Shown here in pieces: positions 1 through 64,000 of a stretch of DNA of 64,000 nucleotides. The notes beneath the pieces were generated by a model, which had not been told where the DNA came from, ran no database searches, and was given only the letters and a program-made list of their open reading frames with translations. The translations under genes and the position numbers were made by a program. Origin of the DNA: Microglena sp. YARC (lineage: Eukaryota; Chlorophyta; Chlorophyceae; Chlamydomonadales; Chlamydomonadaceae); contig CM039462.1 in assembly GCA_022414725.1 (NCBI GenBank), positions 18,593,187 through 18,657,186 of the forward strand, in the 5' to 3' direction. Numbering within the stretch: the first letter of the stretch is position 1; the number at the start of each line of letters is the position of its first letter.

Positions 1-1615
1 CACCTGCTGGCCAGACACGACCCCCCAGAAGTCCCCTTGTTTGGGCATGCCAACAGCATACTGTGAGGGGGCGGCCAACATGTGTGATATGCCCCAATCT
101 ACCGCAATAAACCTGTGCCACACCCACCTGCTGGCCAGACACGACCCCCCAGAAGTCCCCTTGTTTGGGCATGCCAACAGCATACTGTGAGGGGGCGGCC
201 AACATGTGTGATATGCCTTAATCTACCGCAATAAACCTGTGCCACACCCACCTGCTGGCCAGACACGACCCCCCAGAAGTCCCCTTGTTTGGGCATGCCA
301 ACAGCATACTGTGAGGGGGCGGCCAACATGTGTGATATGCCAATCTACCGCAATAAACCTGTGCCACACCCACCTGCTGGCCAGACACGACCCCCCAGAA
401 AGTCCCCTTGTTTGGGCATGCCAACAGCATACTGTGAGGGGGCGGCCAACATGTGTGATATGCCCCAATCTACCGCAATAAACCTGTGCCACACCCACCT
501 GCTGGCCAGACACGACCCCCCAGAAGTCCCCTTGTTTGGGCATGCCAACAGCATACTGTGAGGGGGCGGCCAACATGTGTGATATGCCCCAATCTACCGC
601 AATAAACCTGTGCCACACCCACCTGCTGGCCAGACACGACCCCCCAGAAGTCCCCTTGTTTGGGCATGCCAACAGCATACTGTGAGGGGGCGGCCAACAT
701 GTGTGATATGCCTTAATCTACCGCAATAAACCTGTGCCACACCCACCTGCTGGCCAGACACGACCCCCCAGAAGTCCCCTTGTTTGGGCATGCCAACAGC
801 ATACTGTGAGGGGGGCGGCCAACATGTGATATGCCCCAATTCTACCCGCAATAAACCTGTGCCACACCCACCTGCTGGCCAGACACGACCCCCCAGAAGT
901 CCCCTTGTTTGGGCATGCCAACAGCATATTGTGAGGGGGCGGCCAACATGTTTGATATGCCTTAATCTACCGCAATAAACCTGTGCCACACCCACCTGCT
1001 GGCCAGACACGACCCCCCAGAAGTCCCCTTGTTTGGGCATGCCAACAGCATACTGTGAGGGGGCGGCCAACATGTGTGATATGCCCCAATCTACCGCAAT
1101 AAACCTGTGCCACACCCACCTGCTGGCCAGACACGACTCCCCCCAGAAGTCCCCTTGTTTGGGCATGCCAACAGCATACTGTGAGGGGGCGGCCAACATG
1201 TGTGATATGCCCCAATCTACCGCAATAAACCTGTGCCACACCCACCTGCTGGCCAGACACGACCCCCCAGAAGTCCCCTTGTTTGGGCATGCCAACAGCA
1301 TACTGTGAGGGGGCGGCCAACATGTGTGATATGCCCCAATCTACCGCAATAAACCTGTGCCACACCCACCTGCTGGCCAGACACGACCCCCCAGAAGTCC
1401 CCTTGTTTGGGCATGCCAACAGCATACTGTGAGGGGGCGGCCAACATGTGTGATATGCCCCAATCTACCGCAATAAACCTGTGCCACACATACCTGCTGG
1501 CCAGAAGACCCCCCAGAACTGTCCTGCTTTGGGCATGCCAACAGCATACTGTGAGGGGGCGGCCAACATGTGTGATATGCCCCAATCTACCGCAATAAAC
1601 ATGTGCCACACATAC
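1..1615 (-). repeat. 124-bp tandem array: 13 copies of the donor edge of NCS1 exon 8
   Basis: Thirteen copies of a unit of about 124 bp follow exon 8 on its downstream side. Each copy holds roughly the last 75 bp of the exon (reading AAPSQYAVGMPK, then a variant of the FWGV end), the donor, and about 50 bp of intron. The copy next to the exon (about 1490-1600) shares the exon's diagnostic bases and its gtatgt donor; the twelve distal copies form a uniform subfamily with a gtgggt donor and two extra bases before it. The array runs off the left edge. Confidence 0.93.
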
Positions 1616-2363
1616 CTGCTGGCCAGAAGACCCCCCAGAACTGCCCTGCTTTGGGCATGCCAACAGCGTACTGTGAGGGGGCGGCCAACATGGGTCCAAA
1701 GCCCCCTGCTGCTGAGAGGGCCCACATGAGAAGGGCAGCTGAGAGGCCAATCAGGATGGGGGCGGAGTATTTCTCCAAGATTCGAATGGACTCCATTCCC
1801 TTTAACACAATTGCAACCTGCACAGAGGATGTGTGTGTGTGGTGGTGGTGGTGGTGGTGGGGGGGCATGTGCTTGTGTTATGTGATGGGGCTGAGTACAT
1901 CTCCAAGATTCGAATTCACCTTGTTTCCTTTAACAAAATTGCAACCTGAACATATATGGGGTTGTTGGAGTTGATGATGGTGTTGGTGTTGGTGTTGATT
2001 GCAATTGGGGGTGGGGGGAACATGTTAACATGTGCTTATGTGTGGGTCAGAATAAACCTCCAAGACTCCATTCCCTTTGGGCGGTACTCCAAGTACCGGG
2101 CAATTCCTCTGTATTTGGGCAGTACTAGCAAGGGCCACTGCTCGTCTTAGTCTTAGGCAGCTTTTATTGACTGCTGCTAATGATTGCTGCTAATGTAACA
2201 CGATTGCAACCTGCACAGAGGATGTGGGCGTGTGTGTGTGTGTGTGTGTGTGGGGGGGGGGGGGCATGTGCTTGTGTGTTGTGGTGGGGCTGAGAACTTC
2301 TTTAAGATGTGAATTGACTCCATTCCCTCTAACACAATCGCAACCTGCACAGAGGATGTGTGT

Positions 2364-2394
<31 letters not shown>

Positions 2395-5300
2395 GGGGCC
2401 TGTGCTTGTGTGTTGTGATGGGGCTAAGAACTTCTTTAAGATGTGAATTGACTCCATTCCCTCTAACACAATCGCAACCTGCACAGAGGATGTGTGTGTG
2501 TGGGGGGGGGGGGGGGGGAGGGGGGGGGGGGGGCATGTGCTTGTGTGTGTTGTGATGGGGCTGAGTACATCTCCAAGATTCGAATTCACTCCGTTCCCTT
2601 TAACACAATTGCAACCTGAAAATAGATGGGGTTGTTGGTGTTGCTGTTGGTGTTGGTTGCAATTGGGGATGGGGGGAACATGTTAACATATGCTTGTGTG
2701 TTGTTATGGGGTGTGGGTGGTGGTGTGGGGTGTGGGGTGTGGGGTGTGGGGTGAGAGGTGTGGGGTGTGATTTGTGGGATTTGTAGTGTGGGGTGTGGAG
2801 TATGGGGTGTGTGGTGTGGAGTGTGTGGTGTGGATTGTGGGTGTGGAGGGGGGGGTGTGGAGTGTGGTGTGTGGGTGTGGAGTGTGGGGTGTGGGGTGTG
2901 GAGTGTGGAGTGTGGGGTGTGGAGTGTGGGGTATGGGTGTGGGTGGGGTGTGGAGTATGGGGTGTGGGTGTAAGGTGTTGGCAAACCCAACCCTACCCCA
3001 ACACAACCCATCCCACCCCACCCCAACGCAACTCAACCCAACCCAACGCAGCCAAAAGCACGTACCTGTAAGCTCCAGAAGAGCATGTGGGGTGGTGTGT
3101 GGTGTGTGGGTGTAGGGTTTGGCACGTACACAGCCTAAAGCCTACACCCTAGAATCAAAACCCTAAATCACATACCTGCAAGCTCCAGAAGAGCATGAAG
3201 CATGAGAGCTCGGGAAACCCTAAACCCTAAACCCTAAAGTACATACCGGTACCTGCAAGCTCCAGAAGAGCATGAAGCATGAGAGCTCGGGAAACCCTAA
3301 ACCCTAAACCCTAGAAGCGCATACCTGCGAGCTCCAGAAGAGCATGAAGCATGAGAGCTCTGGAAACCGTAAACCCTAAACCCTGAGCCCTAAGCCCTAA
3401 GCCCTAAGCCCTAAAGCACATACCTGCAAGCTCCAGAAGAGCATGAAGCATGAGAGCTCAGGAAAAGTGATATCCAGCACCGGGAGGACTTGCCAGGTAG
3501 ACGCTGTCAAGGCACCGCCAGTCAGTGTTGAGGCTAGCTGGAATATGGAACTACCACCGATCCAGGTCTGCAGGTGGGTGGTGGTGGGTGGGTGGTGAGT
3601 GGTGGGTGGTGGGTGGGTGGTGGTGTGTGATGGGCCCAAGTAGAGCTGAATAGGTAGCTGCAGTTAAGGCACCGCCACTCAGTGTTGGGGCTAGCTGGAA
3701 TATGGAACTAAAACCAATCCTGGTCTGTAGGTGGGTGGTTGGTGATTGGTGGTTGGTGGTTGTGTGGTTGGTGGGTGGTGGATGGTGTGGTGGTGGTAAA
3801 GGGCCCAAGCAGATCTGAGTAGGTAGATGCTGTCAAGGCACCGCCACTCAGTGTTGAGGCTAGCTGGAAAATGGAACTACCACCAATCCAGGTCTGAAGG
3901 TGGTTGGTGGTTGGCAGTTGGTGGTTGGTGGTTGGTGGTTGGTGGTTGGTGGTTGTGGTGGTGGGTGGTGGTGGTGTGGGGTGGTGGTTGTGGGTTGTGG
4001 GTGGTGGTTAGTGGGTGGTGATTGGTGGGTGGTGCTTTGGTGGTTGGTGGTTGGTGGTTGGTGGTTGGTGGTTGGTGGTGTGGGTGGTGGTTTTGGTGGG
4101 TGGTGGTTGGTGGGTGGTGGGTGGTGGTGGGTGATGGGCCCAAGCAGATCTGAATTGGTAGCTGATGTCAAGGCACCGCTGCTCAGTGTTATGGCTAGCT
4201 GGGAAATGGAGCTGCCACCAATCCAGGTCTGTAGGTGGGTGGTGGGTAGTGAGTGGTTGGTGAGTCACTCAATTTGCGATGCGTTGCACACAACAAAACA
4301 GTGCTACATTGAATACTCAAAATTGTAGACACAATAGTACAACCCGGTGTGTTTTTACAGTTCAGGGGTAGCCAAATAGGTTAAAAGGGACTTGACCAAC
4401 CTTCAAAAACAGGAAAGGCAGTTAAAAACTAAAAACAAAACTTGCCCAACCAGTGTCTTTTTTTTCAGAACCCTGAGAACCCAACCAGAACGAAACCCAA
4501 CCAGAACCCAACCAGAACCCAACTAGAACCCAACCTGAACCCAACCAGAACCCAACCAGAGAACCTAACCAACCAGAACCCAACCAACCAGAATCCCAAC
4601 CAGAACCCAACCCAACCAGTGTCTTTTTTAACCCAACCAGAACCAACCAGAACCCAACCAGACCCTTTTTTCAGAACCCAACCAGAACCCACAGAACCCA
4701 AACAGAACCCAACAGAACCAACCCAACCAGAACCCAACCAGAACCCAACCAGAACCCAACCAGAACCCAACCAGAACCAACCAACCCCAGTGTCTTACTC
4801 CCAACCAACCCAACCACCCAACCAGAACCCAAAGGAACCCAACTAGAACCCAACCAGAACCCAACCACTCAGAACCCAACAGAACCCAACCAGAAACCCA
4901 ACCAGAACCCAACCAGAACCCAACCTCAAAACCCAACCAGAACCCAACCAGAAACCCAACCAGAACCCAACCAGAACCCAGAACCGAACCCAACCAGAAC
5001 CCAACCAGAACCCAACCAGAACCCAACCAGTGAACCCAACCAGAACCCAACCAGAAACCCAACCAGAACCCAACCAGAACCCAACCAGAACCCAACCAGT
5101 GTCTTTTTCAGAACCAACCAGAACCCAACCAGAACCAACCCATCAGAACCCAACCAGAACCCAACCAGAACCCAACCATCAGAACCCAACCAGAACCCAA
5201 CCAGAACCCAACCAGAACCCAACCAGAACCCAACCAGAACCCAACCAGAACCCAACCGAACCCAACCAGAACCCAACCAGAACCCAACCTGTCTTTTTTC

Positions 5301-26300: not shown

Positions 26301-26333
26301 CCCCCCTGAACATGCTGTCCAAAATCTGTCCTT

Positions 26334-38413: not shown

Positions 38414-38497
<84 letters not shown>

Positions 38498-47400: not shown

Positions 47401-47526
47401 GGCAGTGAACTCACCTCTCTTTAGCCTATTTGGCCTACCCTGGACTGTAACATACACATGCGAACAAAGCCATGCTCACTAACTTCGCCATTCCTGTGCA
47501 GGATTGTGCTGGAGACTGACATGTAA
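31223..47526 (+). CDS. Zinc-dependent alcohol dehydrogenase, cinnamyl-alcohol-dehydrogenase type (MDR family)
   Basis: Thirteen exons with consistent phases: 31223-31265, 31356-31458, 32299-32341, 33922-33990, 35303-35344, 36335-36442, 37262-37364, 38628-38757, 39745-39841, 40598-40801, 44645-44773, 46417-46499, 47502-47526; 392 aa, TAA stop. Residues 1-60 are basic and Ala/Ser/Thr-rich, a likely organelle transit peptide. The catalytic domain follows: C93 and D96 in ALCHTDLH, GHE at 114-116, and C204 in APLLCAGITVY provide the catalytic zinc site. C146, C149, C152 and C160 (CxxCxxC-x7-C) form the structural zinc site. The Rossmann motif is GIGGLGH at 228-234, and SGSPSK at 251-256 resembles the NADP(H)-binding loop of plant cinnamyl alcohol dehydrogenases. 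All signature residues are intact. The family reduces aldehydes to alcohols with NADPH; the real substrate in an alga without lignin is unknown. Confidence 0.96.
32070..32260 (+). mobile_element. Dispersed repeat family A
   Basis: Starts 'gttacagtcaaggggtagcc', ends in gattctcgtcgcatt. Lies in dehydrogenase intron 2. Confidence 0.7.
32380..32566. mobile_element. MITE-like family B
   Basis: Ends ttttcttttcagctaca and gcttttagctgaaaagaga are inverted repeats. Lies 39 bp after dehydrogenase exon 3. Confidence 0.75.
32843..33008. mobile_element. MITE-like family B, diverged
   Basis: Shares the inner tracts 'aagccccgagatgtcagcag' and 'agcttccaggtgtactaggt' with the other copies. Confidence 0.65.
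33040..33625 (+). repeat. Tandem repeat of about 95 bp, six copies, in dehydrogenase intron 3
   Basis: Unit includes 'gattcagtcatttgctaggg', 'aaaactcggaagataa' and 'gggtgcataccagccgtggg'. Diverged 5-15%. No coding sense. Confidence 0.92.
33695..33850 (+). mobile_element. Dispersed repeat family A
   Basis: Contains 'cactgatgacctgatcccca' and 'tttgtgctaccgtgaaaat'; ends 71 bp before dehydrogenase exon 4. Confidence 0.65.
34060..34380. repeat. AT-rich and 'gcaatgcatagtaaacag' short repeats
   Basis: ttattatttat tract to 34150, then four to five degenerate copies of 'gtaagcagctgtatgcaatg'. In dehydrogenase intron 4. Confidence 0.75.
34480..35010. repeat. CA-rich low-complexity tracts in dehydrogenase intron 4
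   Basis: Two blocks (34480-34640 and 34800-35010) of cacacac/ccaccacca with a duplicated 'gataattctgaatggcaatt'-like segment between them (compare 34747 and 34910). No gene. Confidence 0.8.
35095..35275 (-). mobile_element. Dispersed repeat family A, reverse orientation
   Basis: Reads backwards from 'gcacgaacttagggccccca' to 'tggctactcctggactgtaa', 28 bp before dehydrogenase exon 5. Confidence 0.7.
35443..35627. mobile_element. MITE-like family B
   Basis: Inverted ends cttttcggctaccagcagca and gctgctgcttgtagctgaaa. In dehydrogenase intron 5, followed by a fragment of another dispersed repeat ('caagtcctaggcag', also at 20588, 41783 and 45874). Confidence 0.8.
35870..36080. repeat. 'gcaggtgggcatgtgtagg' short tandem repeats
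   Basis: About ten degenerate 12-20 bp units of GTAGGTGCAGGTGGGCA in dehydrogenase intron 5. Flanking both sides are copies of 'agatgtaggtgcaggtgggt'-like sequence. Confidence 0.8.
36505..37092 (+). repeat. Ghost edges of dehydrogenase exons 6 and 7
   Basis: At 36508-36545 the end of exon 6 plus donor is repeated (gatagggtaagtg). At 36560, 36870 and 37025 the acceptor side of exon 7 recurs (ctatcgacag and cctattgacag). The last is followed by about 40 bp of exon 7 sequence reading VYAWIKDSCRAC before it diverges. The real exon 7 starts at 37262. Confidence 0.88.
37645..37836. mobile_element. MITE-like family B
   Basis: Ends 'cttttaggctacgagcagtg' and 'gctgctgctcaaagctgaaa'. In dehydrogenase intron 7. 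Confidence 0.8.
37893..38095. mobile_element. MITE-like family B, diverged
   Basis: Starts attgggctacgcatagcagc, ends gactcgtggttcaaaataaa. In dehydrogenase intron 7. Confidence 0.7.
38415..38620 (+). repeat. (CT)n and CCCTC pyrimidine tract
   Basis: About 80 bp of pure CT dinucleotides, then ccctccctctttccc. It forms an extreme polypyrimidine tract for the exon 8 acceptor at 38627. Confidence 0.93.
39440..39715 (+). repeat. CACCC/CACACA low-complexity tract
   Basis: Degenerate ctacacccacccacac repeats before dehydrogenase exon 9. Both strands stay open but the sequence is simple. Confidence 0.88.
39842..40300 (+). repeat. Three ghost donor edges of dehydrogenase exon 9
   Basis: Copies of the last 30-40 bp of exon 9 (reading PLAAAMGAV) occur at about 39925-39962, 40082-40112 and 40252-40285. 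The first two donors have decayed to gcaagt; the third keeps gtaagt exactly as in the real exon. The repeat unit is about 150-170 bp. Confidence 0.9.
40431..40545 (+). repeat. Ghost acceptor edge of dehydrogenase exon 10
   Basis: A tandem copy of 124-bp period carries the acceptor ctgccag and the first about 72 bp of exon 10 (VTAVSESPSKEAEAK) with no donor. Using this acceptor would run out of frame, since 124 is not a multiple of three. Confidence 0.9.
40842..41655 (+). repeat. Six ghost donor edges of dehydrogenase exon 10
   Basis: Units of about 113 bp, at 40842, 41112, 41225, 41338, 41452 and 41565, contain the last about 60 bp of exon 10 (GYDEMVKMCMAL in frame or near it), the donor gtgag or gcgag, and intron sequence aagaaagggaaagcgctatt. 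A dispersed element at about 40925-41100 interrupts between copies one and two. Confidence 0.92.
42135..42310 (+). mobile_element. Dispersed repeat family C
   Basis: Starts 'gtaatgaaaacgcctggtgg', includes agctaccatggcagttgaca. A reverse copy precedes it at about 41690-42015. Confidence 0.7.
42480..42800 (+). repeat. 18-bp tandem repeat GATTTAACAGGGGAGATG, about 16 copies
   Basis: Near-perfect 18-mers, so all frames stay open with a six-residue period. They are interrupted by two 'gttcatgctatgtagattta' joints. Located in dehydrogenase intron 10. Confidence 0.96.
42965..44600 (+). repeat. 38-bp array (about 32 copies) flanked by ghost acceptor edges of dehydrogenase exon 11
   Basis: Units of tatctatagatgtatgaaa plus acagatatacacacaccct run from 43027 to 44243 with almost no divergence. 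At 42968-43033, 44350-44420 and 44512-44580 lie copies of the first about 50 bp of exon 11 (ggcttgcccgtagcggatat, atcaagatcccag). Each runs into 'ctgtctctgggtgtatgaa', which is the ancestor of the 38-mer. Confidence 0.93.
44774..45660 (+). repeat. Ghost donor edges of dehydrogenase exon 11, about seven copies
   Basis: Copies of 'cagttctgcgctgacaaggg' followed by ggtgagttggctgtcttagg occur near 45000, 45105, 45175, 45270, 45340, 45550 and 45630. Most keep a perfect GG|gtgagt donor. Two longer units (about 44806-44985 and 45385-45560) also hold a shared 150-bp segment with 'gactccaaatgtgcc', present a third time at about 51915-52040. Confidence 0.9.
45790..46415. other. Intron 11 remainder: dispersed repeat fragment and CCCTCTC pyrimidine tract
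   Basis: A copy of the 'gcgacaagccctaggcgtgt' repeat at 45870-46045, with a (gaca)n run, then a 250-bp C/T-rich tract (46150-46415) leading to the exon 12 acceptor. No gene seen. Confidence 0.6.
46500..46860 (+). repeat. Three tandem copies of the exon 12 donor and intron start
   Basis: 'gtgagtgtgggaatggtcta' recurs at 46500, 46614 and 46726 (period about 115 bp), each followed by gttgggggatgggctagtcc-like sequence. Very little exon sequence is included here. Confidence 0.85.
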
Positions 47527-48099
47527 GGGGTAAGAGGAACTTAAGCCGCCAAGCACGCAGGACACACTCATGTACACAATAAGCGGTACATGCGGGAGCT
47601 ATTTTCCCTTGGCCCACCGAATGGGCCAGATGTTTCGCATAGAGAAGTTGGGCACGAGGGTTGTTCAGCGGGACTCCAAGATCTGCATCTTGAGACACAC
47701 CCAGTTCCAAGATCTGCATCATGAGACACACCCAGTTCCAAGCCCCAATATTTCAGCAGTGCTGGAAATCTTATTCTGCCAGCTTCCAGATGCACCATCC
47801 CGCATGAGGCTTTGCTGGTAGCAAGCCAATGTAGCTGCTGCTCGTAGCTGGATAGAAAAGCTATGTTGGGGCGCATGCCTGCAGTCTTCATAGCTTCGTA
47901 GCTTGAACGCATTCCTAGCCGCATGTATATATGTTGTTACAATAAGCCACAATACAATAAGCCACAATAAATTCATAAATACGGTAGTACGCCTTACAAC
48001 TAGGTGTGACAGTGAGGGGGGTAAGCTTTTTGCTTGCACTGGGTCCAATCGCCAATCGCCTAGCCACATTTATGTATCTCATTATACATGCCATTCATG

Positions 48100-50270: not shown

Positions 50271-50283
50271 CATTGATAAGGGC

Positions 50284-50335: not shown

Positions 50336-50402
50336 CACCATGTAACCAAATCCTAACCTATCATACACAAACCCGTACTCCATTGATAAGGGCGTGTCCC
50401 CC

Positions 50403-53400
50403 TTAGCGCCGATTTAGTGGTGAGGAGGCTGTTGCATATTCTGGAGGCGCTTGTTTCCGAAATGATTTCCGCGCTGGTTTCCTATCCAAGTCCATCACTG
50501 CATCGCCCGAGCCTGCCTGCATGGCCGCTTGTTTTTTATCGTCTTCTATCTGGCTGGGGTAGCGACCCTGGGGTGGGGGTGGGTTTAGTTGGGGTGGGTG
50601 GTGTGGGGTTGGTGTGGGGTGGAGTAGGCGTGTGGGTGGGGGTGGTTCCTACATACCAAGGACATCGATTGAGTTGGGGTGGGTGGGGGTGGGTTGAGTT
50701 GGGGGAGGTTACAGAGCATGGTGGACTATAGTGCACTGCTCTTGTTATTCTGTTATTCTGTTGCTGTTGTGTTATTGCTATCGTGCTATTGCTGTAGTGC
50801 ACTGCTCTTTTTATTGTGTGTTTTCTGTTATTCTGTTGCTCTTGTGTTATTGCTATTGTGCACTGCTCTTGCTATTGTGTGTTTTCTGTTATTCTGTTGC
50901 TCTTGTGTTATTGCTATTGTGCACTGCTCTTGCTATTGTGTGTTTTCTGTTATTCTGTTGCTCTTGTGTTATTGCTATTGTGCACTGCTCTTGCTATTCT
51001 GTAATTCTGCTGCTCTTGTGTTATTGCTATCGTGCATCCCATACCTCAAAGTATGACAGCCATCCAAGCTCACCCTTCTTTACACCCTTGCACTCTTGCG
51101 CTATCGCTATTCTGTTATTCTCTTATTATGTTGCTATTGTGTTATTGCTACAGTGCATCCCATACCTCAAAGTGCGACAAGTCATCCAGCTCACCCTTAT
51201 TTGCACTCTTGCGCTATTTCTATATTGTTATTCTGTTATGATCTTGCTTTTGTGTTATTGCTACAGTGCATCCCATACCTCAAAGTGCGACAAGACATCC
51301 AGCTCACCCTTATTTGCACTCTTGCGCTATTTCTATATTGTTATTCTGTTATGATCTTGCTTTTGTGTTATTGCTACATTGCATCCCATACCTCAAAGTG
51401 CGACAAGTCATCCAGCTCATCCTTCTTTACACTCTTGCAATCTTGTGCTATTGTGTTATTCTCTTATTATGTTGCTATTATGTTATTCTGTTATAATGCT
51501 ATTGCTATTGTGCACTGCTCTTGCTATTGTGTGTTTTCTATTTTTCTGTTGCTATTGTGTTATTGCTATAGTGCATCCCATACCTCGAAGTACGACAAGT
51601 CATCCAGCTCGCCATTCGTTGCACCCTTAGGAGCATACGCACCCCTGGAGAAGAGAAAAAGCGTTTCAGGGAGTTGTGATTTATCTTTTGGACGTTATGT
51701 CTGCAAACAAATCTGGAATCTTTGCACAACAGCAGCAGCAGCAGCAGCAGAGGCAGCAACGGCAACAGTGGTAGCAGCAGCAGCAGCAACGATAACAGCA
51801 GCAACGGTAACAGTGGTAACGGCAACAGCAACAGTGGTAGCAGCAGCGGTGGGAACAAATAGCTAGCTCCCCATCCAAAAGGTGGGGGCAGGTTTGGTGG
51901 AAATTAGGCCTGGGGATATGATGATGATGATGATAATGATGATTACATTTGTCCTGGTGCCCTACAGGACTCCAAATGTGCCCACGGCTTGATTGAGTCA
52001 AGGGACGTGTGAACGCCACGGAACATTTACGTGCCAATACGTATAGTGGAAATATGATTTGGACAGGCTAGGGCAAGGGGGTGCATTCCTCCAACCAGTT
52101 TAGGACGCTTCTAGGTATAGCTATAGTGTATACGTTCTGACGACCGTCTGTATGCGCTGCGTGCTGGTCAGCATGGATTCGACTGGCGGGATAACAGCCG
52201 GGTTTGTTTACCCTGGTCTAGATTTCAGGCTTTGGAAAGTTTAACATACATATAGGGCTAGGGTGTGTGCAATATACATTTGATAGCATGTGTGTAATAT
52301 ACATACATACATACATACATATAGGGCTAGGGTGTGTGCAACATACATTTGAATGGGCATAACAATACACGGTGGGCAGTGCAACGTGAACCTGAAGATG
52401 AGTGCTTCGCGCAACCCACCCAACACTCACCCCATCCAACCCACCCACCCTAGATACTAGGCTGACAAAGATGCTGAAGCGCCTAGCGTGAGTGTACTAT
52501 GTGCTGTGCTGTCGGGTGGGGTTGGGGGGGGGGACACAAGTTTTGGTGGGCAGTGCAACGTGAACCTCAAGATGAGTGCTTCCTGAGGTGCTCCCGTCGA
52601 TAGACCTTTCCTAGTTGCCTTCTGCCCGTTCGTGTAACACAGATACATGCATTTAGGTTAAGGGGGACAAGATTAACACACGGGACCCCCACCCTATCAC
52701 ATCCCCATGGGGAGGCCCAAGCACCACCATGTTTTGTGAAACATACACACATACATTTAGGTCGCAGGTTTCAAGCATATAATTACATACATACATTTAG
52801 GTCGCAGGTTTCAAGCATTTAATTACATACATACATACATACATACGTACATACAAACATACATTTAGGCCGCAGGTTGCAAGCACATATTTACATACAT
52901 ACATTTATGTCGCAGGTTGCAAGCAGGCAAGGCAGTGAAACAAGCAGAATGAACAAAGCACACACATACAGGCATACATGGCTACGGTGCATGTCCCTCT
53001 CACCTCAAGATCAGGCAGTGCAACTGAATGCAAGGCAGGTGTGCGCCCAAGGTGCTTGTATCAATGAGGACTGGTTGTGTTGTCTGCAGACGTAGGCTAC
53101 TGTAGGGTACATGCATGCATACATGCGTACAAACATACATGCATACATACATGCGTACAAACATACATGCATACATACATGCGTACAAACATACATGCAT
53201 ACAGGGTTATGGAGCATGTCCCCCTCACCTGGTATCTCCTTGGACCCTCCCTCGTCCGATCATGCGGTCCCCTGCCCTATTCCTAGCGTCAGCCATTGGC
53301 CCACTGAAGGGGGTGGCCTTGTTGGAAGCGATCATCTCAGCTCCACCGTCATACCTTAGGGGGACCATGATGGGGGTTAAGTTGGGTGGTGGTGTGTGGT

Positions 53401-56400
53401 GGTGGTGGTCTGTGTGTGTGTGGTGATGGGGGTGGTGGTCTGTGTGTGTGTGGTGATGGTGGCGGTGGTCTGTGTGTGTGTGGTGGTGAATGGGAGTGGT
53501 GGGGGGAGGATACCAGCTGCAACTTTTCCTGCAGCCCTTGTAGGCCCTAGGGGTAGGGGTAGGGGGACCATGATGGGGGTTGTGGGGTGCCTGGTGGTGG
53601 TGGTGGTGGTCTGTGTGTGTGTGTGGTGGCAGTGTTGGGAGCGATCATCTTGGGTCCACCGTTATACCTTAGGGGAACCATGATGGGGGTTGGGTGGTGG
53701 TGGTGGTGGTCTGTGTGTTTGTGTGTGGTGGTGGTAGTGGTGGTGGTGAATGGGAGTGGTGGGCGGGGGGGAGGACACCAGCTGCTACTTCTCCAACAGC
53801 CCGTGTTGTCCCTAGGGGTAGGGGTAGGGGGACCATGATGGAGGTTGTGGGGTGCGTGGTGGTGGTGGTGGTGGATGGGAGTGGTGGGCAGCCTTTGCTT
53901 TGGCTCAATAGCAAGTAAGAGGAGCTGCCTGGAAGCTGCTGCTTGTAGCTGAGAAGGAAAGCCGTGGTCTGTGCATGTGGTATGGTCACATATAGCAGTT
54001 GTCTTAACGTCAGGTACCACCACCAATATTTACTGTTCAATATGGGGATAAAAGCGCTATCGTGAAGCTTTGTCAGAACAAAAATATGCAAATTGTCAGA
54101 ATAAAAAATACCGGGATAAAAGCATATCATAATATCATGAAGCATTTTCAGAACAAATAATACGAATTTTTAGAACAAATAATACCGGGATACAAGCCTC
54201 ATAACATCATGAAGCATTGTTAGAACAAAAAATACCAAGATAAAAGCATATCATAATATCATGAAGCATTGTCAGAACAAAAAATTGCAGGATAAAAGCA
54301 TTGTCATTTCCCAAGGCATCGTCAGGCATTGTCAAAACAACAAGAATCCCTCACCTGTAGAGGACCCAAACATGTGTGTTTATATCAGTTTGGGAATAGA
54401 ACTTTCATGGCGAACGAATAGAACTACATCTTAGCTGAGATCTAAAAATGCACAATAACAAATGCATCTCAGGTGAGAGATCTAGATCTCTCACCTGTAG
54501 AGGACCCACACATGTGCGTATATAGATGTTTGGAATATAACTATTCATGGCGAACGATTACTACTGCATCTCAGGTGAGAGATCTAGATCTGTAACCTGT
54601 AGAGGACCCACACATGTGCGTATATAGATGTTTGGAATATTAATTTCATGACGAACAATTGCAACTACATCTCACCAGAGATCTAGATTTCTGACCTGTA
54701 GAGGAGCTTGTAGAGGTCAAAGTAGATAAAAGCATACCATAATATCATGAAGCTTGTCAGAAGAAGAGTAAACAGAAAAAAACACTGGGATACAAGCGTC
54801 ATTTTTATCCTGAAGCAATATCAGAAAAACGAGAATCTGTCACCTGTAGAGGACCCGAACATGTGCGTATATATAGGTTTGGGAAAAGAAATTTCATGGC
54901 GAACGAATACAACTACATCTAAATTACAACTGCATCTCAGGTGAGATCTAGATCTCTGGGGGTGAGATTTGAGGTATGGGGTGAGGTGGGAGGTGTGGGG
55001 TAAAGGGGTGGGTGGGTAAGGTTTGAGATATGGGGTGTGGGGTGAGGTGTGAGGTATGGGGTGAGGTTTAGATGTCTCACCTGTAGAGGAGCTTGTAGAG
55101 GCCGAAGTAGGCGAAGACTAGGACGGCGACAAAGATTCGCATGAAGCGTTTGCTGCAGAAGAAACAAGGGGGCACACATGTGAGTCCGAGGGGATGCAGT
55201 TGCATTTAACAATCTATCAGCATCAGATTGGACTGGACTAGATTGGTTTTGGATTAGATTAGGTTGAAAGAAGGGGACACACATGTAAGTCCGAGGGGAT
55301 GCAGTTGCATTTAACAATCTATCAGCATCAGATTGGACTGGACTGGACTAGATTGGTTTTGGATTAGATTAGGTGGAAACAAGGGGGCACACATGTGAGT
55401 CTGAGGGGAAGCAGTGGCTTTTAATAATCTATTAGCATCAGATTGGACTGGAATGAAATGGACTGGATTGGTTTTGGATTGAATTTAGGTGGAAACAAGG
55501 GGGCATACATATGAGTCTGAGGGGATGCAGTGGCTATTAACAATCTATTAGCATCAGATTGGACTGGAATGAAATGGACTGGATTGGTTTTGGATCGAAT
55601 TTAGGTGGAAACAAGGGGGCATACATATGAGGGGATGCAGTGGCTATTAACAATCTATTAGCATCAGATTGGACTGGAATGAACTGGACTGATCTGGACT
55701 GGATTAGTTTTATATTAAATTAGGTTGGGTTGAGATTGGATTTAATTGGATTTAATTGGATTGAGATTGGATTGGATTGTATCGTGTTAGATTGTGTATG
55801 CTTATCTTGGATTGGATTGGATTGACTTGAGTGAATGGTATATTATCCTTCACGCTGCTCACAGTCTGGGGTGGAGTACATGCACCGTTTTCCCCCCGTG
55901 CGACACGCTGCAAATCTAGCGACTTGGTGAGACCCCAGTGCGACTCGCCAGGTCCGCGGGGCCCAGGGGGTTCGTGGGGGCATTTCTGACTTGTTTAGTC
56001 AGACCGACGTGTCGGAATGGCTTAGCATCGCAACATAAAAGTAGGGGTCAGCTACCGGTATGTTACAGAATATTAGTGCAAAATATAACATTATATAATA
56101 TTAGTCGGATGAGCTGTCTCACCAGAAATTCGAATATATTTGAAAAACTAATATTATTGTGACACAATAAAATATTAGTTAATATTATTTTTTCAAACAC
56201 TAATATTAGTTACCGTTCCCAACAAAAATGTGATTACATACACTTGGTATGAACACTACTACACCACTCTCCTCAGCACTGTATCTAATCAAGATCCTTG
56301 AACGACGGGTTGCCGGGTTCGAAGCCCCACGGGTGTGTCTTAGTGTCCGTGGTCGCTGTCCTCCCCCATGGTAGCTTTGTCCAGTTAAAGTAGCAGCCCG

Positions 56401-56953
56401 TTCCCTACCGCCGGAAGACGGGCCTCCCTGAATACCACGCTCCATCAGGCGTTATCATTATCTAATCAAGAGAGCAAAAGATTGTACGGCGTGAAAACTC
56501 ATGCTACTCCCGCCAGCCTGGCACTCACTCATACTGCAGGTTTGCTTCTGTGATCACCTTGGCAGCATAGCACATGAGGAGCCCACCTGGCACCAGCATA
56601 TACTGGGACATGGCACCTGAAGCCGGAGGGAAAGAGGAGGCAGAAGAATATGAGAGGGGATGGGGTGGTGGTGTGTGTGTGTTGGGGGGGGGGGGGGGGG
56701 GGTCAGAGAAAAGTCAGAGGGAACGAGGAGACAGAAGAACGTGAGAGGGGATGGTGTGTGCGTGTATGTGTTGGGGGGGGAGGGGGGGGGGGCAGAGAAA
56801 AGCCAGAGGGAAAGAGGAGGCAGAAGAACGTGAGAGGGGATGGGGGTGTGTGTGTTGTTGTTGTTGTTGTTGGGGGGGGGGGGGGGGGGCAGAAAAGCTA
56901 GAGGGAAAGAGGAGGCAGAAGAACGTGAGAGGGGATGGGTGTGTGTGTGTGTG

Positions 56954-56992
<39 letters not shown>

Positions 56993-58377
56993 AGAATGTG
57001 GTGGTCAATTTTAGGTGGTGGTGGTGGTCATGGCGGAGGAGGGTGTGGTGCGTGTGTGTGTGAAGGTGAGAGCTTCAAAAGATCCCGCACCTAGATATGC
57101 CACCAGACTCCCCCTACTTCCACCCACCCCCACCCGGCACACACAAGCACACACACACGCACGCACGCATCACCACCACCCATACCTACCCAGCACCAAG
57201 CTACCACCCACCCACCCCACAAGTCCAACACCACATCAAAAATACACAACACAAAGACACCACCATTGTTACCCCCTCCCCACACACACCACCACCACAC
57301 ACGCACTCAACCAGAACTTTACCACTACCTCCTGCTTCCTTCTACTGACCCAAACACCCCACCCCAACGTTTATCCCCTACACATGCACACACACCACCA
57401 CTACCACAAAGCCCTCGCACAACGACTAGCACAGCCCCCCCCCCCCCCCCCCCCCCCTCGCACACAACTAGCACAGCCCCCCCCCCCCTCCCCCCCCGCC
57501 CTCCTGCCGCACCTTTTGCTGTCCTAGCTACCCCAACCTCCCCTACACACATGCGCACACACACCACCACAAAGCCCCCGCACAACTACCCCCCCACCCC
57601 CCCAACCCACCCCGCCGCACCTATTGCTGTCCTACCTACCCCAACGTCTCCCCCAACACACATACACACACCACCCTAAAGCCCCGCACAACTACCAGCA
57701 CAGTCCCCCTCCCCCCCGCCACACCTATTGCTGTCCTAGCTGCCCAACATCTCCCCCTACACACACACCACCGCCACCACAAAGCCCCCGCACAACTACC
57801 CCCACCACCCCACCCCACCCCGCCGCACCTATTGCTGTCCTAGCCACCCCAACGTCTCCCCCTACACATGCACACACACCACCGCCACCACAAAGCCCCC
57901 GCACAACTAACAACACGGCCCCCCCTCCCACCCCACCCCACCCCGCCGCACCTATTGCTGTCCTAGCCACCCAACGTCTCCCCCTACACATGCACACACA
58001 CCACCGCCACCACAAAGCCCCCGCACAACTAACAACACGGCCCCCCCTCCCACCCCACCCCGCCGCACCTATTGCTGTCCTAGCCACCCAACGTCTCCCC
58101 CTACACGTGCACACACACCACCACAAAGCCCCCGCACAACTAACAGCACGGCCCCCTCCCCCCCCCCCCCCCACCCCCCCCCCCCACCGCACCTATTGCT
58201 GTCCTAGCCACCCAACGTCTCCCCCTACACAAGCACACACACCACCACCACCACCACTAAGCCCCCGCACAACTACCAGCACAGCTCCCCCCCCCCCCCC
58301 CCCCTTCCCCCCACACACACCGCACCTATTGCTGTCCTAGCTGCATCCACAGGAGCGCTTTGAGTGAGACTGGCCAT
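50403..58377 (-). CDS. Small two-helix membrane protein, family not recognised
   Basis: Six exons on the minus strand with consistent phases: 58377-58326 (coding part; the exon's acceptor is at 58398), 56616-56529, 55152-55081, 53354-53229, 51644-51584, 50567-50403; 187 aa, TAA stop. It starts MASLTQSAPVDAAR. Hydrophobic segments lie at about 23-39 (YMLVPGGLLMCYAAKVI) and 51-70 (MRIFVAVLVFAYFGLYKLLY). The rest is a hydrophilic tail: a Gly/Arg stretch (RAGDRMIGRGR, about 97-107), an acidic ELDDLSYFE and a basic C-terminus ending SSPLNRR. I cannot assign a family; an organelle membrane protein is possible. All five junctions restore phase and good GT-AG sites, which is strong evidence that the gene is real. 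An additional 5' exon at 59944-59812 may add a transit peptide. Confidence 0.87.
50568..50725. repeat. GGGGTGGG low-complexity tract upstream of the last exon
   Basis: On the minus strand this is a C-rich tract (ccaccccaactcaaccc) leading to the cccag acceptor at 50568. Frames on the plus strand are spurious. Confidence 0.8.
50726..51583 (-). repeat. Arrays of donor edges of exon 5 of the membrane-protein gene
   Basis: Four copies (about 51027-51075, 51151-51200, 51266-51312, 51379-51425) of the last 25-35 bp of exon 5 (GELDDLS plus a variant of YFE) and its gtatgggatg donor, at about 113-bp spacing. They are followed by a 63-bp array of 'gtgttattgctattgtgcac' (50740-51020). The real edge is at 51584. 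Confidence 0.9.
51725..51860. repeat. (CAGCAG)n / GGTAACAG tract
   Basis: Trinucleotide-rich simple repeat (agcagcagcagc, ggtaacagtggtaacgg) in intron 4 of the membrane-protein gene. Confidence 0.88.
52235..53215. repeat. ACAT/GTAT simple repeats and duplicated segments in intron 4 of the membrane-protein gene
   Basis: Repeats of 'gggctagggtgtgtgcaaca' (52253, 52322), 'gtgggcagtgcaacgtgaac' (52373, 52548), 'aggtcgcaggtttcaagcat' (52758-52925) and (catacatg)n (53105-53205). At 52455-52492 the minus strand resembles part of exon 3 (cttcagcatctttgtcagcc). No further exon is needed here because exons 4 and 5 join in phase. Confidence 0.7.
53355..53900 (-). repeat. Acceptor-edge copies of exon 4 with GTGGTGGT tracts
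   Basis: The acceptor and first 30-40 bp of exon 4 (YDGGAEMIA) recur at about 53640-53690 (YNGGPKMIA). The ccatgatggggg side alone recurs at 53560 and 53830. (GTG)n tracts lie between. The real exon begins at 53354. Confidence 0.85.
54030..54345. repeat. About 50-bp tandem repeats, 'ataaaagcatatcataatat'
   Basis: Five or six diverged units containing 'catgaagcattgtcagaaca' in intron 3 of the membrane-protein gene. Confidence 0.85.
54346..55080 (-). repeat. Donor-edge copies of exon 3 of the membrane-protein gene
   Basis: Five copies (about 54346, 54488, 54592, 54697, 54840) of the exon end CCTCTACAG plus donor. The one at 54697-54730 extends to about 30 bp of exon (FGLYKLLYR-like). The intervening intron repeats 'tgcatctcaggtgagagatc' and 'gaggacccacacatgtgcg'. 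Confidence 0.88.
55153..55700. repeat. About 105-bp tandem repeat, five copies, before exon 3
   Basis: Units contain 'gaaacaagggggcacacatg', 'tcagattggactggactaga' and 'ttggttttggattagatt', continuing to 55830 as gattggatt repeats. It begins at the exon 3 acceptor. Confidence 0.9.
56042..56215. repeat. AT-rich inverted-repeat segment built on AATATTAGT
   Basis: aatattag or its complement appears at least six times. The ends 'acagaatattagtgcaaaa' and 'cactaatattagttaccgt' are inversely related, so this is possibly a short foldback element. Confidence 0.55.
56270..56470 (-). mobile_element. Dispersed repeat family C, reverse
   Basis: Ends in 'ccatcaggcgttatcatta' and carries ccatggtagctttgtccagt. 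It lies about 60 bp downstream of exon 2 of the membrane-protein gene, as the related element does at 21366. Confidence 0.7.
56617..57005. repeat. About 95-bp tandem repeat with poly-G runs before exon 2
   Basis: Four units of 'agagggaaagaggaggcaga' plus 'agaacgtgagaggggatggg' plus (GT)n plus poly-G (up to about 36 G). Confidence 0.9.
57100..58325 (-). repeat. Array of seven donor-edge copies of exon 1 of the membrane-protein gene
   Basis: Copies of the end of exon 1 (GCTAGGACAGCAATAG on the minus strand) followed by gtgcgg occur near 57515, 57615, 57720, 57825, 57950, 58068 and 58190, spaced 100-125 bp. The real donor is at 58325. The intron part is 'gtgtgtgcatgtgtaggggg', 'ggggctttgtggtgg' and G-runs. 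Further C-rich repeats extend to 57100. Confidence 0.93.
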
Positions 58378-58439
58378 GGTGAGGATCTTGAGAAAGCCTG
58401 CTAGGACAAAGGTGTATTCCACCCCACCCCATTTACGGG

Positions 58440-59060
58440 TTAGAGATACCTACAGCAGGGCAATGTTCATTCAATGTGTTGTACAGCAGGGGGGTGGACA
58501 TTAAATATACTGTACAGCTGGGGGTGGACATTGAATGTCTTATTCCCTTGCTAGGGGAAGTAAAAGGGAGATTGCGGAGTGTTTTTGGCGGAGCCCCCTC
58601 TTCTGGGGGGTGGGGTTCAGTGTATGTTTGTTGGCGGAGCCCCCCCTTCTGGGGGGTGGGGTTCAGTGTATGTTTGTTGGCGAAGGTGTATGCTAGGAGA
58701 AACAAAAGGAAGATTTTAAAGAGTGTTTGGTAAAATTTACGCCTGGCCAACAAACGCCAAATTAACGGCAAAAGAACAAAGATTTATCGCAAAAAAGATT
58801 AAAAGTGCTAGAATTATGGCGTTATTACCACTTGTAAGTTGTGCATGTGGGAACATACGTGCTGAAGCCCGGATGAAGGAAGCAAAAGGAAGATTGTGAA
58901 TTGTGCTTCAGTTGTGCGTGTGGGCTTATGTGTCCTGGGAGGAAGCAAAAAGACGATTACGGAGTGTGTTTCAGAGTATGTGTGTGGGTGTATGTGTGCT
59001 GAAGGAGGCAACATAAAGATTACGGAGTGTGTTTCAGCGTATACGTGTGGGCGTATGTGT
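58440..59060. repeat. Tandem repeats upstream of membrane-protein exon 1
   Basis: Two copies of 'ggcggagccccc' plus 'ggggtggggttcagtgtatg' (58590-58680). Then three or four units with 'gattacggagtgtgtttcag' and gtgtgggcgtatgtgtgctg (58860-59060). Confidence 0.8.
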
Positions 59061-59279
59061 GCATGATGTCTGCATGTGCATGTGTGCGTGCATGTTGCAT
59101 GTGTGCATATATGAACACATTTGCATGCTTGCGTGGGTGTTCGCTCATTAGTTAGGGAAGGTGTGTGTGATTGGGCACACTCCTCTGGTTACTGAGGACT
59201 TGAATGTGCAGCAGTACACACATGCACGCCTGGTAGCACCCCAACCTGACACTTCAGCTACTAGGCAGCTTCCTCACAA

Positions 59280-59470
59280 TGTTTCTTTTTGGGGCTATAC
59301 ATAGCAGCTTCCAGCCCGTTCGATTAGCCAGCCACTGGGTCAAGCCCCAAGCTTTCAGCTGCATTGAACTGCCTGTCTGGTTTGAAAACGCACAACTTAG
59401 CTTCAGGTTCCACCCAAGGATGTGGGAATGGAGCTGCCTAGAAGCTGCTACATTAAGCTAAAAATATAAA
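59280..59470. mobile_element. MITE-like family B
   Basis: Ends 'ggggctatacatagcagctt' and 'gaagctgctacattaagcta'; inner tract 'gccactgggtcaagccccaa'. Confidence 0.75.
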
Positions 59471-59811
59471 CAGTGCTTCCTCACCTCTGTTGGTCCCTGG
59501 TCTTCCCCAGCCTGAGGACAGAAATGAGAAATATGAGACCGTAGTTCATCTCTAAAATGAGAGATCGATTAAGGGATCCAGAAACAGTTAGAGGCTAGCT
59601 CCCAGGTAACTGTGCCAGGTTGGATAGACAGAAGTCAACCCAGGCCAGAATGGCCTGTATTGGAATCAGCTTGCAGAACTATGAACCGCTAAAGTGTCAA
59701 GAATAGTTTGCGAATAAAAGCAGAAGCAATTGCGAGCTCATCGGCAGACGAGTCCGTTGCCTCAGGTCCCAGCATGGTTCCAGGTTCTGCTGCGCCCACA
59801 ACCCGCCGCAC

Positions 59812-59944
59812 CGGCCTTCACCTTGGCTACGACCGCATCGCTGCGGTTAATTGTTGGTGCTAAGCGCATGCCGCGCTGTCTTGGAGCGAAAACCCGAGGC
59901 AGGACGCGAGGAGCGCATCCCAGCCGTGAGCCGGCAAGCTTCAT
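59812..59944 (-). CDS. Possible first exon (transit peptide) of the membrane-protein gene
   Basis: From an ATG at 59944 the minus strand reads 44 codons, MKLAGSRLGCAPRVLPRVFA then an Arg-rich stretch ending RSDAVVAKVKA. Residues are basic and Ala/Arg/Ser-rich with no acid before Asp36, as in organelle transit peptides. A gtgcgg donor follows in phase 1, which joins in frame to the acceptor at 58398 (GFLKILT, then MASLTQS). The same donor hexamer is used by the next exon. Spliced, the protein would be 238 aa. Without transcript evidence this stays a proposal. Confidence 0.45.
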
Positions 59945-60574: not shown

Positions 60575-60679
60575 ATGGGCTTCATCAATATTGCACCCGG
60601 GGCCAAGCCGGTACATCTGGTGCTGTCCAAGGACCGCCTGAGGTCCATTAAGCGCGGCCACCCATGGATTTTTCCTGAG
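60575..60679 (+). CDS. RlmI-like PUA/SAM rRNA methyltransferase, first exon only
   Basis: ATG at 60575, 35 codons, then a gtaagt donor in phase 0. The peptide MGFINIAPGAKPVHLVLSKD continues RLRSIKRGHPWIFPE. LVLxKxRxxSIKRGHPWIF is the opening of the PUA domain of class I rRNA cytosine methyltransferases of the RlmI/YccW group. Fragments of the next exon in partial copies at 63595-63960 encode VLVNLPKAPAGSLVLL and GTIHAKGYYDPSSNLAL, matching the next PUA strands (alanine/lysine-Gly-x-Tyr-x-Pro-x-Ser). The catalytic domain must lie beyond the right edge. The homologous enzymes methylate large-subunit rRNA. Confidence 0.75.
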
Positions 60680-60769
60680 GTAAGTGCCGAGTCTCTCAAC
60701 AATAATAAAACAACAAGCTGGTGGCACATGCAGACGGCGCAGGAGATGTTAAAACCTGCCTGACTTGCG

Positions 60770-60955: not shown

Positions 60956-63594
60956 CTGTACTCCAACCCTGCACAGTGTGTTTGTACAGTGCAAGCACTA
61001 GTGAACCAGCCTGTACTGTGCAGGGCGCATGGTGCGTGGTGTGCTGACAGGCGTTTACACAGTGCATGCATTGGTGAACCTACCTGTAGTGTGCAGGCGC
61101 ATGGCACGTGGTGTGTTGACAGGCGTGTGTACAGTGCAGGCATTGGTGAACCAGCATGTACTGCGCATGGCACGTGGTGTGTTGACAGGCGTGTGTACAG
61201 TGCAGGCATTGGTGAACCAGCATGTACTGCGCATGGCACGTGTACAGTGCAGGCATTGGTGAACCAGCATGTACTGCGCATGGCACGTGTACAGTGCAGG
61301 CATTGGTGAACCAGCATGTACTGCGCATGGCACGTGTACAGTGCAGGCATTGGTGAACCAGCATGTACTGCGCATGGCACGTGGTATGTTGACAGGCGTG
61401 TGTACAGTGCAGGCATTGGTGAACCAGCATGTACTGCGCATGGCACGTGTACAGTGCAGGCATTGGTGAACCAGCATGTACTGCGCATGGCACGTGGTAT
61501 GTTGACAGGCGTGTGTACAGTGCAGGCATTGGTGAACCAGCATGTACTGCGCATGGCACGTGGTGTGTTGACAGGCGTGTGTACAGTGCAGGCATTGGTG
61601 AACCAGCATGTACTGCGCATGGCACGTGGTATGTTGACAGGCGTGTGTACAGTGCAGGCATTGGTGAACCAGCATGTACTGTGCATAGCACGTGGTATGT
61701 TGACAGGCGTTTGTACAGTGCAGGCATTGGTGAACCAGCATGTACTGCGCATGGCACGTGGTATGTTGACAGGCGTTTGTACAGTGCAGGCATTGGTGAA
61801 CCAGCATGTACTGCGCATGGCACGTGGTGTGTTGACAGGCGTTTGTACAGTGCAGGCATTGGTGAACCAGCATGTACTGCGCATGGCACGTGGTGTGTTG
61901 ACAGGCGTTTGTCGGTGAAGGTATTGGTGAACCTGCCTGACTTTTGTAGGGCGCATGGCGCAGTATGTGTTGACAGGGGTGTGTAACATGCAGGCAGACA
62001 AATTGGTGAACTTGTGTAGGGCACATGGTACGATGTGTGTTGATAGGGGTGTGTAACTTGCAGGCAGACAAATTGGCGAATTTGTGTAGGGCGCATGGTA
62101 CAATGTGGGTTGGTAGGGGGGTGTAAAATGCAGGCAGACAAATTGGTGAAGCAGCCTAATTTATGTAGGACGCATGGTACATTTGTGTTGATGGGGGTGT
62201 GTAAAATGCAGGCAGACAAATTGGCAAATTTGTGTTGGACGCATGGTGCATTTGGGTTGATTGAGGTGTGTAAAATACAGGCAGACAAATTGGTGAAGCA
62301 GCCTAATTTATGTAGGACCCATGGTACAGCGGGGTACTACATTTTGTCAAATTGGTCAGCGCTTAAAAGCACACAAACATCAAATTGGTCAGCGCTTTGC
62401 AGTGCAAAAAACGCAAAAACTTCGCGCTGCGTCAACATGGGGTTGAAAAAACTGCGCGAAACGCGCAGTGGGGCTCAAAAAGCATGCGTGAAATTGCGCT
62501 GCCGCGCTCCCTTTGTAGTACCCTGTGGTACAGTTGTGTTGATGGGGATGTGTAAAATGCAGGCAGACAAATTTGCGAATTTGTGTAAGACGCATAGTGC
62601 ATTTGTGTTGAAGGGGGTGTGTAAAATGCAGGCAGACAAACTGGCAAATTTGTGTAGGACGCATGGCACATTGTGTGTGATGGGTGTGTAAAATGCAGGC
62701 AGACAAATGGCGAATTTGTGCAGGACGCATGGTGCTTTTGGGTTGATGGGGGTGCGTAAAATGCAGGCAGACAATTGGCGAATTTGTGTAGGACGCATGA
62801 TACATCGTGTGTTAATAGGGATGTGTAAAATGCAGGCAGACAAATTTGCGAATTTGTGTAGGGCGCATGGTGCATTTGGTGTTGATGGGGGTGTGTTAAT
62901 TGCAGACAGAAAAATTGACGAATTTGTATAGGACGCATGGTGCATTTGGGTCGATGGGGGTGTGTATAATGCAGGCTGACAAACTGGCGAATTTGTGTAA
63001 GACACGTGGTGCATTTGTGTTGATGGGTGTGTGTAAAATGCAGGCAGACAAACTGGTGAATTTGTATAGGACGCACGGCACATTGTGTGTGATGGGTGTG
63101 TGTAAATGCAGGCAGACAAATGGCAAAAATTTGTAGGACGCATGGTGCATTTGGGTCGATGGGGGTGTGTAAATGCAGGCAGATAAATTGGCAAATTTCA
63201 AAATGTGTGTAGGGCACATAGTGCATTTGGGTTGCACATTGTCTCTTAACAGACGTGAACCGTGAACTGTACCGTAAACAGAAACGTCATCTGTGCAGGT
63301 GTCGGTGAACCAGCCTATATTGTGCATCCCTGTATTGTGCATAGCTCAGTGTGTGTTAGCAGATGTGTGTCGACTGTGCAGGTGTTGGTGAAACAGCCCG
63401 AATTGTGTATCCCTGTATTTTTCATGGCTCATTGTGTTTTAGCAGATGAGTTAATTGTGCAGGTATTGGTGTAACAGCCTGTATTGTGCATAGCTCAGTG
63501 TGTGTTAGCAGATGTGTGTACTGTGCAGGTACGGGTTGACCAGCCTGTATTGTGCGTAGCGCAGTGTTTGTTAGCAGATGTGTGAACTGTGCAG
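60956..63594 (+). repeat. 2.6-kb array of acceptor-edge copies of methyltransferase exon 2
   Basis: More than 35 units of 35-70 bp, each carrying gtgcag or atgcag followed by a diverged exon start: gcattggtgaaccagcatg in 60990-61920, gcagacaaattggcgaattt in 61985-63200, and gtgttggtgaaacagcc again at 63290-63480. The least diverged exon starts follow at 63595. Open frames through the array are artefacts of the unit. Confidence 0.9.
62330..62525 (+). mobile_element. hAT-like MITE, 196 bp, with 8-bp target duplication
   Basis: Ends cggggtactaca and tgtagtaccctg (one mismatch), flanked by exact tggtacag at 62322-62329 and 62526-62533. The interior matches the reverse complement of 23185-23328 (for example aaattggtcagcgctt and ctgcgcgaaacgcgcag) with about 52 bp extra. 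Confidence 0.92.
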
Positions 63595-63678
63595 GTACTG
63601 GTGGACCTTCCCAAGGCACCGGGGTCCTCTGGCTCTCTTGGAGGATACCACTACCAATTCAAACACCAACACCAACAC

Positions 63679-63763
<85 letters not shown>

Positions 63764-64000
63764 CAATGAACTGTGCAGGTACTGGTTAAACTACCCAAGG
63801 CACATGCAGGCTCTCCTGGAGGATAAACAAGGGACGATTCACGCTAAAGGATACTATGATCCCTCTTCCAATCTTGCATTGACAGGCGTGTGAACTGTGC
63901 AAGTTCTGGTGAACCTACCCAAGGCACCTGCAGGCTCTCTGGTTCTCCTGAAAGACACCAGCACCAACACCAACACCTCTCTCTCTCTCTATATATATAT
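63595..64000 (+). pseudogene. Three partial copies of methyltransferase exon 2
   Basis: Copies start at 63595, 63779 and 63903. The first reads VLVDLPKAPGSSGS and then leaves the exon. The second goes furthest (to GYYDPSSNLAL) but has an 8-bp deletion that puts a stop in frame, then fuses to intron sequence. The third has lost the acceptor (gcaa in place of gcag). The intact exon is presumably beyond the window. Confidence 0.78.
63680..63762. repeat. (CT)n then (AT)n microsatellite
   Basis: ctctctct followed by about 33 AT dinucleotides. A second ctctctctatatat starts at 63977 at the same place in the next repeat copy, so the microsatellite is part of the exon-edge unit. Confidence 0.95.

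Follow-up and report, generated by a model that had tools for sequence, protein, structure and literature searches.

How do introns come to contain repeated copies of the edges of their neighbouring exons? The question is raised by a 64-kb stretch of the genome of the green alga Microglena sp. YARC (contig CM039462.1, positions 18,593,187 to 18,657,186; hereafter the window, with positions counted from its first nucleotide), where the intron next to an exon is often occupied by copies of a unit that crosses the splice site, carrying exon, splice site and intron together. The window holds parts or the whole of four genes, namely an ADH gene, a permease of the NCS1 type and two others referred to here as gene T and gene R, and these have 39 splice sites with intron sequence inside the window (20 donors and 19 acceptors). 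Between 13 and 15 of the 39 sites have such copies, which probably arose by random local tandem duplication, a process that splicing is predicted to tolerate.

Copies of exon edges were sought in two ways. In the first test, an exon edge of up to 60 nt was aligned to the adjacent intron and was called positive if its score exceeded by at least 15% both the highest among 60 draws from other introns and that of the reverse complement of its own intron. Thirteen of the 39 sites were positive, and in these 13 rows the scores of 38-110 compare with null maxima of 18-26 and reverse-complement scores of 10-27. The alignment ended exactly at the splice site in all 13 cases, and the best copy had kept its GT or AG in 11 of them. 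The second test used a 60-mer centred on the site and, at a threshold of 36, also identified 13 of 39 sites (8/20 donors and 5/19 acceptors) against 1/39 reverse-complement controls; raising the threshold to 44 left 12 sites and no control. Twelve sites are common to the two tests and their union is 14, the ADH exon 11 donor being positive in the first test only and the ADH exon 6 donor in the second only. The ADH exon 12 donor lies outside this union and is a 15th case, with an array that includes 0-3 exonic bases. As a further control, 60-mers from the middle of 11 exons were tested, and two reached a score of 36 (NCS1 exon 1 and ADH exon 7), both by matching upstream, where the acceptor unit extends far into the exon. 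Masked self-BLAST of the window was tried and missed arrays beside simple repeats, so point-wise local alignment was used instead; a list of arrays from Tandem Repeats Finder was reduced from 412 rows to 63 arrays by filters on period, complexity and overlap. The original prediction, that about fifteen boundaries in unrelated genes have tandem copies crossing the splice site, is borne out by these counts. Its extension to all four genes is too broad: ADH, NCS1 and T have such sites, but the donor of gene R is not straddled and the copies in its intron resemble an exon beyond the window.

The units measure ~72 to 220 bp where their spacing is clear. Their exon-side breakpoints, in 14 arrays, are scattered at 6, 21, 24, 24, 30, 40, 42, 45, 46, 63, 64, 66, 73 and 80 bp into the exon. 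Copy numbers are highest at the donors of NCS1 exon 2 (13), T exon 2 (seven), and ADH exons 10 and 11 (six each), and a single extra copy is found at the ADH exon 6 donor and the ADH exon 10 acceptor. The NCS1 exon 2 donor unit consists of 80-90 bp of exon, the donor and intron, with GT in all 13 copies. In the NCS1 exon 1 donor array, the intronic part of the unit holds TTTAGGG-like repeats, and at the T exon 5 donor more partial copies, none reaching the splice site, continue to ~50765. ADH intron 10 also contains a 38-bp satellite (43025-44244; 32 copies at 98% matches), situated between the diverged exon 11 acceptor copy at 42980 and the copy at 44327.

That many units keep GT or AG was also predicted, and the dinucleotide is intact in 55 of the 62 copies that reach the splice site. 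When copies that do not cover the dinucleotide or have fewer than five exonic bases are dropped, it is retained in 51/57, against 46.5 expected from flanking dinucleotides; the splice dinucleotides in the copies decay about like their flanks. Nine arrays have at least three copies. In four of these (the donors of NCS1 exon 2, ADH exon 9, T exon 2 and T exon 5) the intron copies resemble one another more closely than they resemble the exon, suggesting that the array expanded later within the intron. There is no general gradient of similarity away from the exon among the nine, the correlation of similarity with distance being positive in three and negative or near zero in six. A test for uniformity of the exon fraction of units (p=0.09) was set aside because intron parts cover several units there.

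A sequence of events that would produce this pattern needs nothing aimed at splicing. Pieces of DNA some tens to a few hundred bp long would undergo tandem duplication throughout the genome, affecting introns and intergenic sequence equally. Within an exon, a duplication would alter the protein and the variant would be lost, while one across a single splice site could be silent because the outermost, exon-proximal site would still be usable and the extra copies would leave with the intron. The founding duplications may later have expanded inside the intron in the manner of minisatellites. Introns would in this way lengthen from the edges inward, and the decoy donors and acceptors that they collect would decay about neutrally. 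The copies and their ends at the splice sites are observed; the mechanism of duplication, the history of expansion and the short ancestral introns on which the fit depends (see below) are what we infer.

The main rival to random duplication is that duplication is targeted to splice sites, for instance because R-loops form, breaks occur or replication stalls at exon-intron borders, or because spliced RNA intermediates serve as templates. This was the direction taken by the original prediction, which held the placement too regular for random duplication and proposed a genome-wide comparison with random intron positions. Within the window, 304 of 1,233 pseudo-sites were removed as low-complexity, and of the remaining 929 random intron positions ~10% lie in the first copy of an array, ~10% in the last, and for 53% there is a copy somewhere in the same intron. 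The plain ~10% is not the sole null, because nested arrays make intronic first copies two-sided positions. Forward simulations of uniformly placed tandem duplication with internal expansion, substitution and deletion were matched to the window either loosely (mean intron length 1.0-2.3 kb, copy coverage 0.38-0.68) or tightly, by adding first-copy coverage; the loose match accepted 224 of 2,699 runs in one set, and 206 and 225 among 2,278 in a second. Uniform placement alone straddled 25-26% of sites in loosely matched runs, with P(>=13/40) of 0.25-0.29, and 20-22% in tightly matched runs, with P(>=13/40) of 0.09-0.12 (69, 81 and 92 runs). By set, at least 13 of 40 sites were straddled in 28% of 224 loose and 9% of 69 tight runs in the first, and in 25% of 206 loose and 10% of 81 tight runs in the second; freeing the exons from constraint changed this little (29% of 225 and 12% of 92). 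As exon constraint hardly matters in the simulation, we infer that much of the excess over the 10% baseline is geometric: a splice site is only ever in the outermost copy, whereas intronic positions turn two-sided as arrays nest, and an apparent excess results. A first, small simulation (nine settings, ratios 0.58-1.95) yielded introns that were too short for a comparison, and it plays no part in the conclusion.

Other measurements agree with uniform placement. Intron-only 40-mers next to the site, with 10 of the 39 real sites removed as low-complexity, have copies at 7/29 sites against 13-16% (p=0.19), and stricter thresholds give 6/29 (p=0.31) and 4/29 (p=0.62), so there is no significant excess at any of the three; two of the seven positives, the acceptors of T exons 3 and 4, are not straddled in the other tests. 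Arrays are equally dense between genes: intergenic sequence has 1.41/kb (23 arrays over 16.3 kb), and introns together with gene ends have 1.21/kb (40 arrays over 33.1 kb), the 13.8-kb array at 4494-18270 being excluded from the comparison. An array crosses the stop codon of gene T as well, and the scatter of exon-side breakpoints argues in the same direction. Targeting to splice sites is therefore unlikely, and the regularity that had suggested it is within reach of uniform duplication. What stands of the proposal of intron growth is that the units add intron length and leave many decoys; the link to splicing does not gain support.

Several results nonetheless weigh against random duplication as the whole explanation. 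The count of 13/39 looks enriched over the plain baseline of ~10%, whether for first or last copies. A matched-filter null, from which 10 of the 39 real sites are dropped because they are low-complexity or their intron offers too few control positions, gives 7/29 real sites against 2.8 expected, a 2.5-fold excess (p=0.0125), and the same null corrected for slower exon change gives 6.05 (p ~0.045); a looser matched null, in which any copy on the intron side counts, expects 8.3. The unfiltered 13/39 lies toward the upper end of the simulated values, and the simulations themselves contain free parameters and assume a random base composition. The fit of uniform duplication also hinges on short ancestral introns: tight runs started from introns of 200, 300, 600 and 1,000 bp straddle 25%, 23%, 19% and 14% of sites, and none of the 14 tight runs from 1-kb introns reaches 13/40. 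Just one of the five coding starts and stops tested is straddled, the T stop codon, and in five of the nine arrays with at least three copies the copies are not more alike mutually than to the exon. The sample is small, consisting of one 64-kb window with three informative genes, and the arrays of a single gene may depend on one another. Within the window, the comparison with random placement thus gives a divided answer, the matched excess on one side and, on the other, simulated runs in which 9-29% reach at least 13/40. A splice-linked mechanism is not required by the data, although a modest excess is possible. The stronger form of the idea, in which duplication is drawn to splice junctions, introns grow mainly by copying their own edges and the spliceosome always picks the outermost among equally strong sites, appears improbable.

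The arrays might instead be functional, the repeated splice sites being kept to regulate alternative splicing or exon length. Many of the decoys score well. Small position matrices were derived from the donors (20) and acceptors (19) of the window itself and used to score 61 of the 62 copies, one being cut by the window edge; 54 of the 61 have the dinucleotide intact, 40 score at least as high as the real site, and 39 of these 40 have an intact GT or AG. The nearest of the ADH exon 10 decoy donors is in frame, 114 bp downstream of the real one, and the 38 codons that separate the two contain no stop; 5/6 decoys at this exon are in frame. Against this, read-through to the second decoy of ADH exon 10 contains stops, only 17/55 decoys elsewhere are in frame, and the retention of GT or AG is not clearly above that of the flanks. 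The site used would in every case be the exon-proximal one, judged by homology and, for gene T, by the identity of the predicted protein with EukProt P0121. A function for the arrays is accordingly very unlikely.

Misassembly of reads could in principle create tandem copies, in a window rich in simple repeats and with NCS1 exon 2 donor copies that are 98% alike. The other arrays of at least three copies are diverged, with a mean copy-copy identity of 0.85-0.94, and the exon half of the site differs from that of the best copy by 0 to 10%; an assembly artefact is most improbable. Least probable is that the introns themselves were born by tandem duplication of exonic AGGT, the Rogers/Hellsten form of intron gain in which both ends of a new intron derive from the exonic duplicate (as summarized in PMC4974935): tandem duplication supplies splice signals within the units here too, but none of the 18 complete introns has matching donor and acceptor regions (scores 8-14 against 10-18 for reverse-complement controls), allowing that old introns could have lost the match.

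How far does this resemble what is already described? The arrays are minisatellites in the sense of head-to-tail units of ~10-100+ bp with diverged copies, apart from the few cases with a single extra copy. Introners are repeated DNA with splice sites, dispersed in many genes; the window's repeats likewise bear splice sites, but their copies are local to their own exon, and for the exon edges of the 13 positive sites no score above 26 was found in the 60 draws from other introns of the window. Zhuo and others (2007) reportedly described human introns that lie in tandem arrays and have matching boundaries, and here also splice sites lie in tandem arrays, unlike those in that the ends of the introns do not match. 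The supposition that no described system does this was too sweeping. A potato gene for an RNA-dependent RNA polymerase has, in the account given in PMC4974935, a tandem duplication across an intron-exon boundary that produced a new spliced intron, with RNA reads in support. As far as that account goes, the likeness lies in a tandemly duplicated segment that crosses one intron-exon boundary and carries splice signals. The differences are that potato has a single duplication in one gene, where the window has many arrays, at 13-15 of 39 sites and most of them with several copies, and that the potato duplication created an intron, on RNA evidence, while the arrays of the window are predicted from sequence to lengthen existing introns. 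Human internal tandem repeats (minisatellites) that modify gene structure, within segmental duplications, are alike in overlapping gene structure, a comparison drawn from their outline description (PMC2812944). Judged against a limited search of the open-licence literature, the novelty lies in how dense the arrays are, in their multiple copies and in how many strong decoys a single region holds.

Table. Positions in the window of the genes, exons and arrays discussed in the text
Feature	Position	Strand	Remarks
NCS1 exon 2 donor array	1..1705	-	124-bp unit, 13.8 copies; cut by window edge
NCS1 exon 2 of window	1616..1817	-	
NCS1 exon 2 acceptor array	1755..2650	-	~134-bp unit, 63 bp exon; 5 copies, AG in all
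NCS1 exon 1 donor array	3051..3465	-	72-77-bp unit, 42 bp exon; 4 copies, GT in all
NCS1 exon 1 of window	3424..3567	-	
NCS1 exon 1 acceptor array	3495..4257	-	~160-bp unit, 73 bp exon; 3 copies, AG in all
ADH gene	31223..47527	+	13 exons, 392 amino acids; Pfam ADH_N 5e-26, ADH_zinc_N 1.4e-20
Purely intronic array, for comparison	33030..33626	+	96 bp x 6.2
ADH exon 6 donor duplication	36437..36546	+	offset 74 bp; 6 bp exon
ADH exon 7 acceptor copies	36542..37301	+	at 36542 without exon part; at 37023 with 40 bp exon
ADH exon 9 donor array	39811..40294	+	3 copies: GC, GC, GT
ADH exon 10 acceptor duplication	40429..40669	+	offset 124 bp; ~64 bp exon
ADH exon 10 donor array	40736..41656	+	114-bp unit; 6 copies: 3 GT, 3 GC
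ADH exon 11 acceptor copies	42980..44690	+	42980 (no AG), 44327 (AG), 44489 (AA)
ADH exon 11 donor copies	44751..45660	+	6 copies, GT in all; 5 extend at least 21 bp into exon
ADH exon 12 donor array	46497..46832	+	113-bp unit x 3; unit starts at most 3 bp from splice site
Array across T stop codon	50206..50426	-	110-bp unit; 24 bp coding and 3' flank
Gene T	50403..59944	-	six exons; spliced protein and EukProt P0121 identical over 196 amino acids
T exon 5 donor array	51015..51628	-	~113-bp unit, 45 bp exon; 4 copies, GT in all
T exon 4 donor copies	54476..55110	-	2 copies, GT in both
T exon 2 donor array	57482..58349	-	7 copies, GT in all
Gene R exon 1	60575..60679	+	PUA-like start; donor not straddled
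Gene R, copies like start of exon 2 beyond window	63286..63990	+	uncounted

The genes themselves are known to differing degrees. Among the 120 relatives of ADH listed, the best of those given with an organism belong to Chlamydomonas eustigma, to Dunaliella salina and to a transcript named 'Pyrami...'; the closest relative is EukProt P0001 (73% identity), a prediction of 524 amino acids that is apparently two ADH copies fused and that, from the style of its name, likely comes from the same genome as P0121. Two exons of the NCS1-type permease, on the minus strand, fall within the window; they match Pfam Transp_cyt_pur (3.9e-08) and nothing in the PDB at 0.001. Gene T may be an orphan, as a 133-amino-acid query that included a doubtful extra exon gave, among nine candidates, no hit at E<=0.001 other than the gene's own entry in EukProt, and hydrophobic stretches judged by eye suggest that its product could be a membrane protein. 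The doubtful exon is a 126-bp in-frame candidate with GT and AG sites (53229-53354), of whose start a partial copy can be seen by eye near 53640-53690; the candidate was excluded from all counts because it is absent from EukProt P0121. An inverted, dispersed copy of T exon 3 and adjoining intron (56292-56615) lies at 21214-21538, with 84% identity over ~325 bp. Gene R has a Pfam match to PUA_3 (E 0.00057) whose 20.1 bits are under the 22.6-bit cut-off. Its intron 1 (60973-63990) is mostly repeats, and the stretch at 61137-61853 perhaps contains older copies resembling the start of the out-of-window exon 2.

Repeats of other kinds were also noticed. The 13.8-kb array at 4494-18270 consists of ~1,240 copies of a degenerate 11-bp unit, AACCCAACCAG, and has a strong strand skew and long stop-free frames. 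Interstitial telomere-type repeats (TTTAGGG/CCCTAAA) occur within tandem units at 3160-3415 and 19875-20582.

The arrays suggest a simple route by which introns may lengthen, growing from their edges at little cost provided that the exon-proximal copy is still used. They also amount to a natural test of how splice sites are chosen, with 39 of 61 decoys having GT or AG and matching or beating the true site. Should RNA show that the outermost site is the only one used, the choice must be governed by position or by exon sequence, and not by site strength alone.

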